Positions 15,089-17,668 of a stretch of DNA of 64,000 nucleotides are shown here, in pieces. Every line of letters starts with the position of its first letter. Position 1 is the first letter of the stretch. Location of the stretch: the NCBI RefSeq assembly GCF_900177245.1, contig NZ_FXBM01000002.1, forward strand, positions 682,001-746,000, read 5' to 3'. The DNA is from Rathayibacter oskolensis (GTDB taxonomy: Bacteria; Actinomycetota; Actinomycetes; Actinomycetales; Microbacteriaceae). The notes under the pieces are model-generated. The model searched no databases. It was not told the origin of the DNA and was given only the letters and a program-made list of their open reading frames with translations. Both the position numbers and the translations under genes were made by a program.

Positions 15089-15123
15089 TTTCCCGAGCGC
15101 GGTGCGGACGACTCCCCACCCTG

Positions 15124-15369
15124 CGGAAGGCGATCAGGTGAAAACGCGTGCCAGCGTTTTCACCGAGCCGAACGCACCCCGCTCTGCGAGACGCGCCCCC
15201 GTTTCCGAGCCGACCGCGGCGGAGCGAGCGCGAGCGCTCGCGCACCCCGCGGAAGGCGATCAGGTGAAAACGCGTGCCAGCGTTTTCACCGAGCCGAACG
15301 CACCCCGCTCTGCGAAACCCGACCCCGTTCCGAGCCGACCGCGGCGGAGCGAGCGCAAGCGCTCGCGCA
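15124..15369. repeat. 126-bp tandem duplication with two identical 11-bp hairpins
   Basis: Units start at 15124 and 15250 (both CGGAAGGCGATCAGG). Each holds a perfect stem GGTGAAAACGC/GCGTTTTCACC with loop GTGCCA (15137-15164 and 15263-15290), and each ends with a GCGAGCGC...GCGCTCGC inverted repeat. They differ by a few substitutions and a 1-nt indel. No coding sequence is credible here. The hairpins could end transcription from the regulator gene at 15380-16087. With the two features above, they fill most of the 690-bp gap between genes. Confidence 0.75.
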
Positions 15370-15379
15370 GCAATTCAAC

Positions 15380-16087
15380 TCAGAACAGGTCCGGGCTCGG
15401 CGTCGACGCGTAGCGGATCGCGACGTCGGCGTGGCGGTCGAAGCGGTAGCCGACTCCGCGGACGGTGCGGACGATGTCCTCGTAGCGGCCGAGCTTGGCG
15501 CGGAGGCGGCGGACGTGGACGTCGATGGTGCGCTCGTTGGGCGCGTCGTCGTCGGCGGCTCCCCAGAGGGAGGCGATCAGCTCGGCGCGCTCGATCGTGC
15601 GGCCCTCGCGGAGCACGAGGTACTGCAGGAGCTCGAACTCCTTGTAGGTGAGCGCGGTGGTCTCGTCGTCGAGGATGACGCGCTTGCGCGAGATGTCGAT
15701 GACGACTCCTCCGGGGGCGCTGTCGAGGTCGGGCTCGGAGTCGGCGCGGCGTCGGGCGACGGCGGCCGGGTCCTGGAGGGCGAGGCGGACGACGTCGACG
15801 TCGCGCCCGCCGGCGCCCTGGGGGGCGAGGGCGACCGAGGCGTAGGTCTCGGCGTCGGGGGCGAGGAGAGCCGTGACGCGCTTGAGCTCCTCGACGAGCC
15901 GGCCGAGGTCGACTCCGGCGGCGCGGGCCTTGGCCTCGTCGATGCCGACGTAGAGGGCGAAGCCGCGGGCCTCGGTGCCCTGCGGCACGGCGCGCAGGCG
16001 CGGGGCGGCGGGGGCAGGCTGCGGTGCGGCCTGGAGGCGGGGGGTCTCGTGGGCGGTGGGTGCGGTGCGGGCGTGGAGGAGGGTCAT
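15380..16087 (-). CDS. OmpR-type winged-helix regulator lacking a receiver domain
   Basis: A 235-residue DNA-binding protein. The C-terminal 100 residues are a clear OmpR/PhoB winged helix (LTYKEFELLQYLVLREGRTI, NERTIDVHVRRLRAKLG, IVRTVRGVGYRF). The N-terminal half has an Ala/Pro-rich start and a small alpha/beta segment (FALYVGIDEAKARAAGVDLG) with no phosphorylatable Asp pocket. It is therefore not a classical response regulator, and its signal is unknown. AAGGA precedes the ATG at 16087 by 8 nt. A 33-codon leaderless ORF lies 212 nt upstream on the same strand and may control it. Confidence 0.88.
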   Translation of the reverse strand: MTLLHARTAPTAHETPRLQAAPQPAPAAPRLRAVPQGTEARGFALYVGIDEAKARAAGVDLGRLVEELKRVTALLAPDAETYASVALAPQGAGGRDVDVVRLALQDPAAVARRRADSEPDLDSAPGGVVIDISRKRVILDDETTALTYKEFELLQYLVLREGRTIERAELIASLWGAADDDAPNERTIDVHVRRLRAKLGRYEDIVRTVRGVGYRFDRHADVAIRYASTPSPDLF

Positions 16088-16299
16088 GACGAATCCTTGG
16101 GGTGTTCGGATCCGGGACGGGTGTCCGGGGAGCGGATCCGGGTGTGCGCGAGTGCGGTCCGCACGAGGCGGTCCGGCGGTGTCGGACGGAGTGTCCGAGG
16201 GATCCGTCGCGCCTGCGACGCCCGTCCGATCACGGGGATCGGTCCAATCAGGAGGATCGGGGGGCGGAGGCTGTGCGGGGATCCGGCGAGGTCAGTGCC

Positions 16300-16401
16300 T
16301 CAAGCACACATTCGACAACACATGACGAGGCCACGGGCCATCATCATGTCGGCATTCCCGGAAGCCTCGAAGGAGGTCAGGGCGTGCAGGTTGTCAGTCA
16401 T
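16300..16401 (-). CDS. Leaderless 33-residue ORF with C-terminal Cys cluster (putative leader peptide)
   Basis: A short ORF starting MTDNLHAL and ending VMCCRMCA, with TGA at 16300-16302. Its ATG lies 5 nt behind a TACTAT box, so the mRNA would begin at or near the A of ATG with no ribosome site. The run MMM and the CC..C cluster just before the stop recall cysteine-responsive attenuation peptides described in actinobacteria. It is not adjacent to a known sulfur gene; the next gene downstream is the winged-helix regulator. Translation and an attenuator role are inferred; small stems (CCGAT...ATCGG, CGTCGC...GCGACG) follow in the 212-nt spacer. Confidence 0.55.
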   Translation of the reverse strand: MTDNLHALTSFEASGNADMMMARGLVMCCRMCA

Positions 16402-16406
16402 GATCG

Positions 16407-16438
16407 ATAGTAAAGCCGACCGGAGCGGAGCACGTCAA
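16407..16438 (-). promoter_or_regulatory. Promoter for the leaderless leader ORF
   Basis: Minus strand: -35 TTGACG (16433-16438) and -10 TACTAT (16407-16412, 20-nt spacer) or TTTACT (16409-16414, 18-nt spacer). It drives toward the ATG at 16401 and then the winged-helix gene. Confidence 0.6.
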
Positions 16439-16501
16439 CCGATTTCCGCGCACCGGGGGAGGATGCGCGGTCTCGGCGGTCGGCGGACGGCGTCCGCCGG
16501 C

Positions 16502-17137
16502 TCAGCCCGCGAGCCCGTACAGGCGGTCGCCGGCGTCGCCCAGTCCGGGCACGATGTAGCCGAGCTCGTTGAGCCGCTCGTCGAGCGAACCGAGCACGAT
16601 CGTGACGTCGCGGTCGCCGAACGCCTTCTCGACGGCGGCGAGTCCCTCGGGGGCCGCCAGGAGGCAGACGGCCGTGACGTCGACGGCTCCGCGGTCGAAG
16701 AGGAACTGGATCGCCGCGATGAGGGAGCCTCCGGTGGCGAGCATCGGGTCGAGCACGAAGCACTGGCGGTTCGAGAGGTCCTCGGGGAGGCGCTCGGCGT
16801 AGGTGGTCGGCTCGAGGGTCTCCTCGTTGCGCGCCATCCCGAGGAATCCGACCTCGGCGGTGGGGATCAGCTTGACCATGCCCTCGAGCATCCCGAGACC
16901 GGCGCGGAGGATCGGGACGACGAGCGGCTGCGGGTCGCTGAGCGCCAGCCCGGTGGTCGTCGTCACCGGCGTCTCGATCGTGACGGGCCTCGTGCGGACC
17001 CCGCGGGTCGCCTCGTACGCGAGCAGGGTCATCAGCTCCTCGGCGAGCTGACGGAACGTGGGGGAGGGGGTGCGCTTGTCGCGCAGCACGGTGAGCTTGT
17101 GCGTGATCAGCGGGTGGTCGGCTACGTGGACGCGCAT
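16502..17137 (-). CDS. upp: Uracil phosphoribosyltransferase
   Basis: A 211-residue pyrimidine-salvage enzyme joining uracil and PRPP to give UMP. It starts [20 protein letters not shown], has [12 protein letters not shown], the PRPP loop [14 protein letters not shown] and the uracil-binding end [19 protein letters not shown], all standard. The ATG lies 6 nt after TAGATT with no ribosome site, so the gene is probably leaderless. It diverges from tadA, 54 nt away. Confidence 0.97.
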
Positions 17138-17191
17138 AAGCTCAATCTACTTGCTGGCCGGAGGGCGGCCGGAGCCGGGAGGAGTGGCGCG

Positions 17192-17668
17192 ATGCGCGAG
17201 AGCGACCTGCGCCTCCCCGCCGGATCGGACGGCTGGATGCGGTCGGCGCTCGAGGAGGCGCGGCGCGCCGAGGAGTGGGGCGACGTGCCGGTCGGCGCGG
17301 TGGTCGTCGACGCCGACGGAGTCGTCATCGGCCGCGGCCGCAACGAGCGCGAGCTGCACCGCGACCCGACGGCGCACGCCGAGATCGTGGCCCTGCGCGA
17401 GGCCGCCGCGGCTCGAGCCGACTGGCAGCTGAACGGCTGCACCCTCGTCGTCACCCTCGAGCCCTGCCCGATGTGCGCGGGCGCGATCCTCGCCGCGCGG
17501 ATCGAGCGCGTCGTCTTCGGAGCGTGGGACGAGAAGGCGGGGGCGGCCGGATCGGTGCACGACCTCCTCCGCGATCGCCGGCACAACCACGTGGTCGAGG
17601 TCTACCCCGGGGTGCGGGCCGAGGAGAGCACGCGTCTGCTCGTCGACTTCTTCGCGGCGCGGCGCTGA
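17192..17668 (+). CDS. tadA: tRNA-specific adenosine deaminase
   Basis: A 158-residue zinc deaminase that converts A34 to inosine in the tRNA-Arg(ACG) anticodon. Zinc ligands and the proton shuttle are visible: His62 and Glu64 in AHAEIVAL, Cys92 and Cys95 in EPCPMCAGAI. The C-terminal SVHDLLRDRRHNHVVEV segment is typical. The ATG at 17192 follows GGGAGGAG. A shared hairpin separates it from the convergent amidotransferase gene. Confidence 0.94.
   Translation: MRESDLRLPAGSDGWMRSALEEARRAEEWGDVPVGAVVVDADGVVIGRGRNERELHRDPTAHAEIVALREAAAARADWQLNGCTLVVTLEPCPMCAGAILAARIERVVFGAWDEKAGAAGSVHDLLRDRRHNHVVEVYPGVRAEESTRLLVDFFAARR

Follow-up and report, generated by a model that had tools for sequence, protein, structure and literature searches.

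Leader reading frame and gene organization

The window, meaning the whole stretch of 64,000 nucleotides of Rathayibacter oskolensis DNA that was analysed, contains on its minus strand a short ORF situated between upp and a gene for an OmpR-type winged-helix regulator (Table 1). Its translation, read from the window sequence, is MTDNLHALTSFEASGNADMMMARGLVMCCRMCA (33 aa). The sequence-only reading had proposed an ORF at this place, and the frame is indeed real, with an ATG start and 33 residues on the minus strand; both motifs that had been cited with it, TACTAT 5 nt ahead of the ATG and TTGACG further upstream, are present in the sequence. The promoter assignment stood in part: TTGACG is retained, but TACTAT as the -10 element gives way to the conserved TTTACT, two bases earlier. 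At the -10 offset of 100 leader promoters (those carrying TTGAC among 105 distinct ones), TTTACT is the commonest hexamer (33), with CATAAT at 13 and GATAGT at 11. A generic promoter scan reported no promoter at the leader, a silence that follows from its rules, since position 2 of TTTACT is not A and the distance of TACTAT from TTGACG is 20 nt. The leader ORF had no match in Pfam or NCBIfam at E up to 10, and no Rfam family reached the gathering score within window positions 15300-17200.

Table 1. Features of the leader-regulator locus (positions in the window)
Feature	Position	Strand	Details
Leader ORF	16300..16401	minus	ATG start, 33 codons, probably leaderless
-35 element TTGACG	16433..16438	minus	TTGAC 36-37 nt before ATG in relatives
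-10 element TTTACT	16409..16414	minus	18 nt after the -35 element
Position of the GTNAC-type repeat (10-bp period) overlapping the promoter in relatives	16409..16438	minus	degenerate in the window
TGT TGT CGA ATG TGT (Cys codons and CGA-ATG)	16306..16320	minus	CGA constancy, TGT bias
Predicted RNA hairpin	16321..16350	minus	pairing of the three Met codons (16339-16347) with a stretch whose end is GTC ATG (16321-16326), just before the Cys codons
Structured RNA, 212 nt, leader stop to regulator start	16088..16299	minus	predicted folds
AAGGA, likely Shine-Dalgarno sequence of the regulator	16094..16098	minus	sequence; similar sites in relatives
Regulator (winged helix of OmpR type, DNA-binding domain GlnR-like)	15380..16087	minus	Pfam, Foldseek, phmmer
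upp (uracil phosphoribosyltransferase), upstream neighbour	16502..17137	minus	

Conservation of the leader among relatives

Loci for comparison were the best 80 of at least 499 confirmed regulator relatives, taken from named genomes. An ORF ending in Cys-Arg-Met lies upstream of the regulator in 77 of the 78 evaluable Microbacteriaceae loci (77/80 of the best-80 set), L006 and L011 being truncated by contig ends and therefore not evaluable. At the locus of a Yonghaparkia sp. (L048), the leader start is kept and the Cys-CGA-ATG end is lost, together with most of the spacer as judged by eye. A profile search of the leader across 396 genomes of the order detected 32 genomes at E < 1e-8, and a search with the regulator across a second draw of 396 genomes gave 33 genomes with a match below 1e-80. 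The profile recovers the leader in 31 of these 33 (G001, the 32nd profile genome, lies outside the second draw), and the remaining two (G256 and G343; loci L197 and L198) have a leader, located through in-frame CGAATG, that ends Arg-Arg-Met-Cys-Ala. The regulator is present downstream in 28 of the 30 strong profile-found leader loci, the other two (L102 and L107) being contig ends. A search for further copies at E up to 10 yielded no second convincing leader in seven genomes; in that search the true, short-form leader of G007 ranked only third (E 1.56). Two genomes, G045 and G090, are taken for Microbacterium-like on the basis of gene content.

Leaders of 25, 26, 27, 31, 32, 33, 34 and 45 codons occur, and CGA-ATG is in frame with the initiating ATG throughout. 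In 95 of the 100 promoters, the distance from the beginning of TTGAC to the leader ATG is 36-37 nt, which is the spacing of a leaderless transcript. The reading frame was used in collecting the ORFs, whereas promoter spacing and the CGA codon were not. Comparison with relatives, the check that the sequence-only reading had recommended, found leaderless geometry, frame, Cys codons and stop conserved; the outcome that would have told against the reading, a frame or Cys codons not kept in relatives, did not occur. The leader ORF is real and conserved beyond chance, and sequence comparison also shows conserved codons and structure, linkage to the regulator and shared promoter repeats.

A second lineage, comprising the genus of G012 and the tier-2 genomes, is presumably Micrococcaceae/Arthrobacter, an assignment made from gene content. 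Its regulator orthologues show 46-54% identity. In the genus of G012, a regulator match was found in all 41 genomes searched (broken by a stop in G569), and the leader is of the VNKNSTAPAAAEYWPSTPAAADMRCCRMHA type at all 30 loci fetched, beginning with GTG and ending with TGTTG[TC]CGAATG; leaderless spacing was judged by eye here, and the leader search string was CGAATG itself. Another 27 tier-2 loci were fetched from the 35 tier-2 genomes. Fifteen carry a CGAATG leader with an open frame, L166 encodes Cys-Cys-Cys-Arg-Met with a longer tail (by eye), L175 has the CGAATG motif with no short frame found by the script, and ten (L160-L162, L164, L167, L169, L174, L177, L181 and L185) keep the regulator without a CGAATG leader. 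Several of those ten still show, by eye, a promoter stretch of the TTAC-TTG type. In a more distant lineage (L187, L189 and L191), leaders contain MLCVRD, and GTT CGC GA pairs by eye with the downstream TCGCGAAC; MLCVRD was seen in these three of five tier-3 loci read by eye (nine fetched), with none seen in L188 and L193.

Codon usage and substitution pattern

The Arg codon near the leader end is CGA in all 70 distinct leaders. Since these leaders were collected via the peptide end CRM, the constancy of Arg-Met is partly by construction, which does not apply to the CGA codon itself. The Cys codons are likewise skewed: the codon preceding CGA is TGT in 50 leaders and TGC in 20, the second codon before CGA is TGT in 55, TGC in 6 and another codon in 9, and the codon following the ATG of CGA-ATG is TGT in 48, TGC in 13 and a Ser, Tyr or His codon in 9. 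Over whole leaders TGT:TGC amounts to 154:47. The background is very different: across 317 long coding-like ORFs, TGT makes up 13.4% of 538 Cys codons and CGA 8.5% of those for Arg, and the TGT:TGC ratio is 1:78 in the 33 long coding-like ORFs of the window (background ORFs were picked by codon-position GC, not annotation).

The terminal Cys cluster that had first drawn attention to the ORF is borne out as a set of conserved codons, but it is not the most constant part of the leader, which is the Cys-Arg-Met end with its CGA. Cys-Cys stands directly before CGA in 36 of 43 leaders of 33 codons, and some lineages have one Cys there; the Cys count of the leader end ranges from 1 to 3, Clavibacter leaders end SCRMSA with a single Cys, and in some lineages a near-end Cys is replaced by Ser, His, Tyr or Arg with CGA kept. 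Cysteine may thus not be the signal, given that some leaders have only one Cys and that Arg precedes CGA in L197 and L198. If the account proposed below is true, it raises the question why CGA is kept more strictly than the Cys codons.

This pattern bears on the idea of a general translation-stress leader resembling the whiB7/wblC uORF, in which slow decoding of CGA-ATG near the stop, rather than cysteine, would be read and any slowing of ribosomes would raise the regulator. Such a leader would account for the invariance of CGA (70/70) two codons ahead of the stop and for the single Cys of some leaders, and it has a precedent in the leader-ORF control of a regulator described for whiB7/wblC (PMC11550727). 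It accommodates poorly the strong over-use of TGT, the repeats resembling the leader promoter that precede sulfur genes (see below) and a scan of window positions 15900-16560 that gave 0 intrinsic terminators, and it is regarded here as unlikely, though well worth keeping in mind.

Pairwise differences by codon position amount to 4864/4613/5137 over 626 non-independent pairs of 33-codon leaders, each with at most 30 differences, so that a third-position excess, and with it the synonymous bias expected in the sequence-only reading, is absent over the leader. This lack of protein-type constraint, together with strong RNA folding, points to a predicted cis-acting translated leader and not a functional peptide. 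A small thiol- or metal-binding peptide acting in trans, for example on the regulator, would explain the conserved peptide text and the linkage to the regulator gene; it is very improbable in view of a substitution pattern that is not of the protein type, the replacement of near-end Cys by Ser, His, Tyr or Arg while CGA is kept, and the coincidence of the conserved stretches with predicted hairpins.

RNA structure and possible switching

Leader ORFs are predicted to fold better than dinucleotide shuffles (mean z -1.53, with 51 of 70 below -1) and better than synonymous permutations (mean z -1.13, 70 leaders). At the locus itself, positions 16058-16401 (344 nt, from the leader start into the regulator) give a fold z of -3.56, with none of 100 shuffles as stable. 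In the second lineage, GCATTCG, which is complementary to CGAATGC of the leader, lies about 40 nt before the regulator start in 31 of 32 aligned sequences (GCATTCGA in 27 of 32), and CGAATGC has a competing partner in GGCATTCG, which directly follows the leader. The pairing bases hardly vary, so they yield no covariation evidence. No universal CGAATG partner was found in Microbacteriaceae; pairing of CGAATG with the regulator start was considered and set aside there, as it occurs in L052, L080, L008 and L024 and is not family-wide.

Folding of this kind, the missing third-position excess and the complementarity in the second lineage would all suit a conserved RNA (or DNA) element in which the ORF is incidental and untranslated, control then being exerted by a ligand, by a protein that binds the RNA, or through binding to the DNA of the transcribed stretch. 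The placing of the ATG at leaderless distance in 95 of 100 promoters, the maintenance of CGA-ATG in frame through eight leader lengths and the stop two codons after the ATG of CGA-ATG argue instead for translation, and the leader regions of 13 loci gave no Rfam match at gathering score; an untranslated element is judged improbable. The leader end was also tried as a DNA operator and rejected: TGYTGYCGAATGYNNGC with one mismatch gave scattered matches in 13 genomes, and the exact sequence occurs in only 4 of the 13, once each, at the leader.

With a modelled stalled ribosome, the cost of opening the start region changes from 7.92 to 7.98 kcal/mol (mean change 0.05 across 105 leaders), 21 leaders becoming easier and 21 harder by more than 1; the corresponding costs in the second lineage are 9.62 and 8.96 (46 leaders). 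Opening of the regulator start by a stalled ribosome was accordingly dropped as a family mechanism, the mean effect being absent. The window itself shows a drop from 11.7 to 7.1 under the stall, which is weak evidence, as the family mean shows no effect. Kissing between the ATGATGATG loop and CATCATCA, which lies next to the Shine-Dalgarno sequence of the regulator, was likewise not supported. Runs of 7 or more are enriched near the start, occurring in 47 of the 93 leaders with ATGATG, whereas each of three control stretches gave 0 for these 93; yet 7 of 10 leaders lacking ATGATG have such runs as well. Overall, 54 of 103 Microbacteriaceae leaders (L008-L112) have a CATCATC-type run of at least 7 close to the Shine-Dalgarno sequence of the regulator, some 7-48 nt ahead of its start; in one clade the run forms the loop of a CCTC/GAGG hairpin.

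The regulator

The protein encoded downstream comprises 235 residues, and the description of it as a receiver-less OmpR-type regulator agrees with its domain content, the winged helix Trans_reg_C (PF00486, 3.2e-22) being the sole Pfam match above the cut-off. Compared with two-component OmpR-type response regulators, it has the winged helix, whereas a receiver domain was not detected, with no Response_reg match at E up to 10. Among its relatives (at least 499), those of two Rathayibacter strains are 95% identical to it. Foldseek ranks 1-4 are GlnR DNA-binding domains at 46-49% identity, and in phmmer residues 104-219 match GlnR at E 4.3e-20. AlphaFold gave a moderate model (mean pLDDT 68.9, pTM 0.46), in which the N-terminal part has low to moderate confidence. 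The GlnR N-terminal domain (PF21695) was not found in the regulator above the Pfam cut-off. All 13 genomes tested encode elsewhere a separate GlnR with its own PF21695 domain, for which reason an identification of the regulator as GlnR itself was rejected and the protein is considered a GlnR paralogue.

Tandem repeats and candidate targets

Microbacteriaceae leader promoters contain GACAC-N5-GTCAC with a 10-bp period. The repeat-unit score is 2.18 of 4, compared with 1.00 +/- 0.085 in 2000 spacer shuffles, and 48 of 100 promoters have 3 or 4 matches; once similar spacers are collapsed, it falls to 1.66, with 0.68-1.30 at other offsets, and 3 or 4 matches are seen in 16 of 53. Among 17 offsets scanned, the peak is offset 12, 10 bp after the GAC of the -35 element, and offset 10 gives 1.32 against 1.01 in shuffles. 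The second unit of the window, GCTCC, is degenerate with 2/4 matches, as are the units of L004 and L005, and a three-unit pattern with up to two mismatches found no match in the window. In the second lineage, 30 leader promoters contain GTTAC twice, 20 bp apart, with no clear 10-bp period (8.33 at 10, 8.37 at 9, shuffles 6.8).

Similar repeats precede several sulfur genes. The sir promoters read in seven genomes have three-unit scores of 9-11 of 12 at period 10, sir being named for its place before cysH/cysD (PF01507), with a ferredoxin-nitrite reductase model, below cut-off, as best NCBIfam match. A sir-derived pattern with two mismatches gave 28 matches across 16 genomes of the genus of G012 and 2 with the reversed control; 16 of the 28 are sir-like (five places read as sir), 8 lie before cysG and 4 are unassigned. 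The cysG sites were an unplanned find, with the family match checked on L277, and the cysG mean includes L282, anchored at a wrong ATG with a score of 7. TTGTTACTTGC was rejected as a regulon site in the same genus, its recurrent second match at the prs start/glmU end being coding sequence.

In 15 Rathayibacter genomes, GWNAC-N5-GTNAC-N5-GTNAC with no mismatch has matches in 5 genomes (reversed control, 1), located at metF in three, at an sfnB-like gene in two and at a DUF4870 gene in one. The metF places each carry PF02219, and metE after metF was checked in L288. Eleven Rathayibacter metF promoters (of 15 genomes) score 9-12, with a mean of 10.91/12 at period 10 against 7.54 in shuffles and 7.45-8.09 at periods 8, 9, 11 and 12; in the metF promoters of 10 other Microbacteriaceae the repeat is weak (8.6 vs 7.56). 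The metF scan covered 21 loci, L316 being left out as a partial match. At L286 and L294, an SfnB/DszC-like gene is divergent from a znuA-like gene (by eye), and GACAC-N5-GTCAC-N5-GTCAC lies between them; the oxidoreductase family match was obtained on L294, and the L286 gene was read by eye. The same three-unit repeat precedes the DUF4870 gene of one Rathayibacter genome (L289, 1501-1525). The NCBIfam models for MetF, SfnB/DszC, full-length CysG and sir were matched only below cut-off, Pfam MTHFR, TP_methylase and NIR_SIR above it, and cysN, prs, glmU and znuA-like identities were read from translations by eye.

On the strength of these sites, the regulator is probably itself a sulfur regulator. 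A rival possibility keeps the leader as described and assigns the repeats before sulfur genes to another OmpR-type protein such as GlnR, leaving the regulator with different targets. GlnR boxes are likewise tandem and of the GTNAC type (PMC10704036), a true GlnR is present in 13/13 genomes, cysG can also serve nitrite reduction, and the second-lineage leader promoters lack a clear 10-bp period. The boxes given in that source are, by contrast, mostly of n6 spacing, that is, of an 11-bp period (PMC10704036), whereas period 10 is prominent and period 11 near shuffle level in the sir, cysG and metF promoters; moreover, the Rathayibacter targets are methionine and sulfur genes, and the Microbacteriaceae repeat overlaps the promoter of the regulator's own leader. 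Another owner of the repeats is thus doubtful, yet it is the alternative to be taken most seriously. The regulator itself resembles GlnR in its closest solved DNA-binding domain and in its tandem GTNAC-type candidate sites, and differs from it in lacking the GlnR N-terminal domain and in the 10-bp rather than 11-bp period of those sites. PF01507 (PAPS reductase/CysD; cysH/cysD) had no match in 5 of 12 draft genomes, namely G001 (Rathayibacter), G002 (Leifsonia), G003, G005 and G028, and the regulator therefore appears to persist where the sulfate route seems to be missing.

Proposed mechanism

The best explanation, held at slightly better than an even chance, is that a cysteine-responsive leader controls a sulfur amino-acid regulator acting at GTNAC repeats. 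The promoter at 16409-16438 would start the transcript at or very near the leader ATG, and the 33 codons would be translated without a Shine-Dalgarno sequence. Ribosomes would then meet rare TGT Cys codons followed by a rare CGA, a Met codon and a nearby stop, all within structured RNA, and a shortage of charged Cys-tRNA may stall them there. The stalled ribosome would alter the folding, termination or decay of the 212-nt RNA, with translation, Rho-dependent termination and decay as candidate output routes, and more regulator would presumably be made. The regulator, in turn, would act at tandem GTNAC-type repeats of 10-bp period. These lie ahead of sulfite/sulfate reduction genes and of genes for siroheme, for making methionine and for scavenging sulfur; in Microbacteriaceae, they also lie ahead of the regulator's own leader. 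This arrangement suggests that cysteine supply is read via translation of the leader and not by a sensor domain of the regulator.

A fuller version, offered tentatively and with rather less than even confidence, holds that Microbacteriaceae and their relatives use this protein as their regulator of sulfur amino acids, that Cys-tRNA charging on TGT-CGA-ATG sets its amount, and that it drives sulfate, siroheme, methionine and scavenging genes via the repeats and feeds back on the leader promoter; the regulator would then lack a receiver domain because the sensor is the mRNA leader. The account is weakest as to the signal, which may be Cys or slow decoding of CGA, and as to which protein binds the repeats. 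If it is true, a sulfur regulon would have its input in one short leader and its output in one operator, with attenuation operating one level up, on a regulator rather than on each operon. No sulfur amino-acid regulator of this group is described among the literature matches listed, nor is this leader or regulator, those matches consisting of titles and abstract starts with subscription papers mostly outside.

Relation to known leader systems

Polycysteine leaderless short ORFs of mycobacteria were reportedly described by Canestrari et al. in 2020. Such ORFs are said to control the downstream gene by cysteine-dependent ribosome speed (PMC9031893, PMC9094748, PMC13236596). In the present case, too, a short ORF containing Cys codons precedes a gene, and its start is predicted to be leaderless. 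Unlike the mycobacterial leaders, this ORF precedes a transcription regulator and not a cysteine gene, so that the link to sulfur genes is indirect, and its Cys number varies while CGA-ATG is constant; sequence and families are different as well. Candidate Cys leader peptides of cys/cbs operons have been listed for Mycobacterium, P. acnes and B. longum (PMC1262725); they share with the present case Cys codons near the stop and no obvious terminator, but they precede biosynthetic operons, whereas here a regulator gene follows. The whiB7/wblC uORF, as outlined in PMC11550727, acts through a Rho-independent terminator and answers antibiotics. The likeness to it would lie in a leader ORF controlling an actinobacterial transcription factor, and the difference in another type of regulator and in the terminator, of which the scan of window positions 15900-16560 gave none.

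The sequence-only reading regarded a Cys-rich leader before a regulator as an arrangement it did not recognise. On the whole its interpretation finds partial support. The regulator does lie downstream, yet the arrangement is less foreign than supposed, given the whiB7/wblC precedent (PMC11550727), and the case would come near the mycobacterial sulfur attenuators in that the regulator is probably itself a sulfur regulator. The leader does not qualify for either the polycysteine or the whiB7 class, since no sulfur enzyme lies downstream, the run of Cys varies and the scan gave no terminator. The simplest account uniting the observations would be a cysteine-responsive leader placed on a regulator of sulfur amino acids; it would work as the mycobacterial polycysteine leaders and the whiB7 uORF do, yet belong to neither.

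Other features around the regulator

The stretch at 15117-15369, between the regulator and a MarR-type gene, contains two copies of an 87-nt repeat that are 95% identical, with starts 126 nt apart, each including the near-palindrome GGTGAAAACGCGTGCCAGCGTTTTCACC; a 47-nt repeat is likewise present twice in this stretch, at a distance of 125 nt. At the locus L183 (2894-3084), a c-di-AMP riboswitch scores above the gathering threshold on the opposite strand, upstream of the leader of the regulator.
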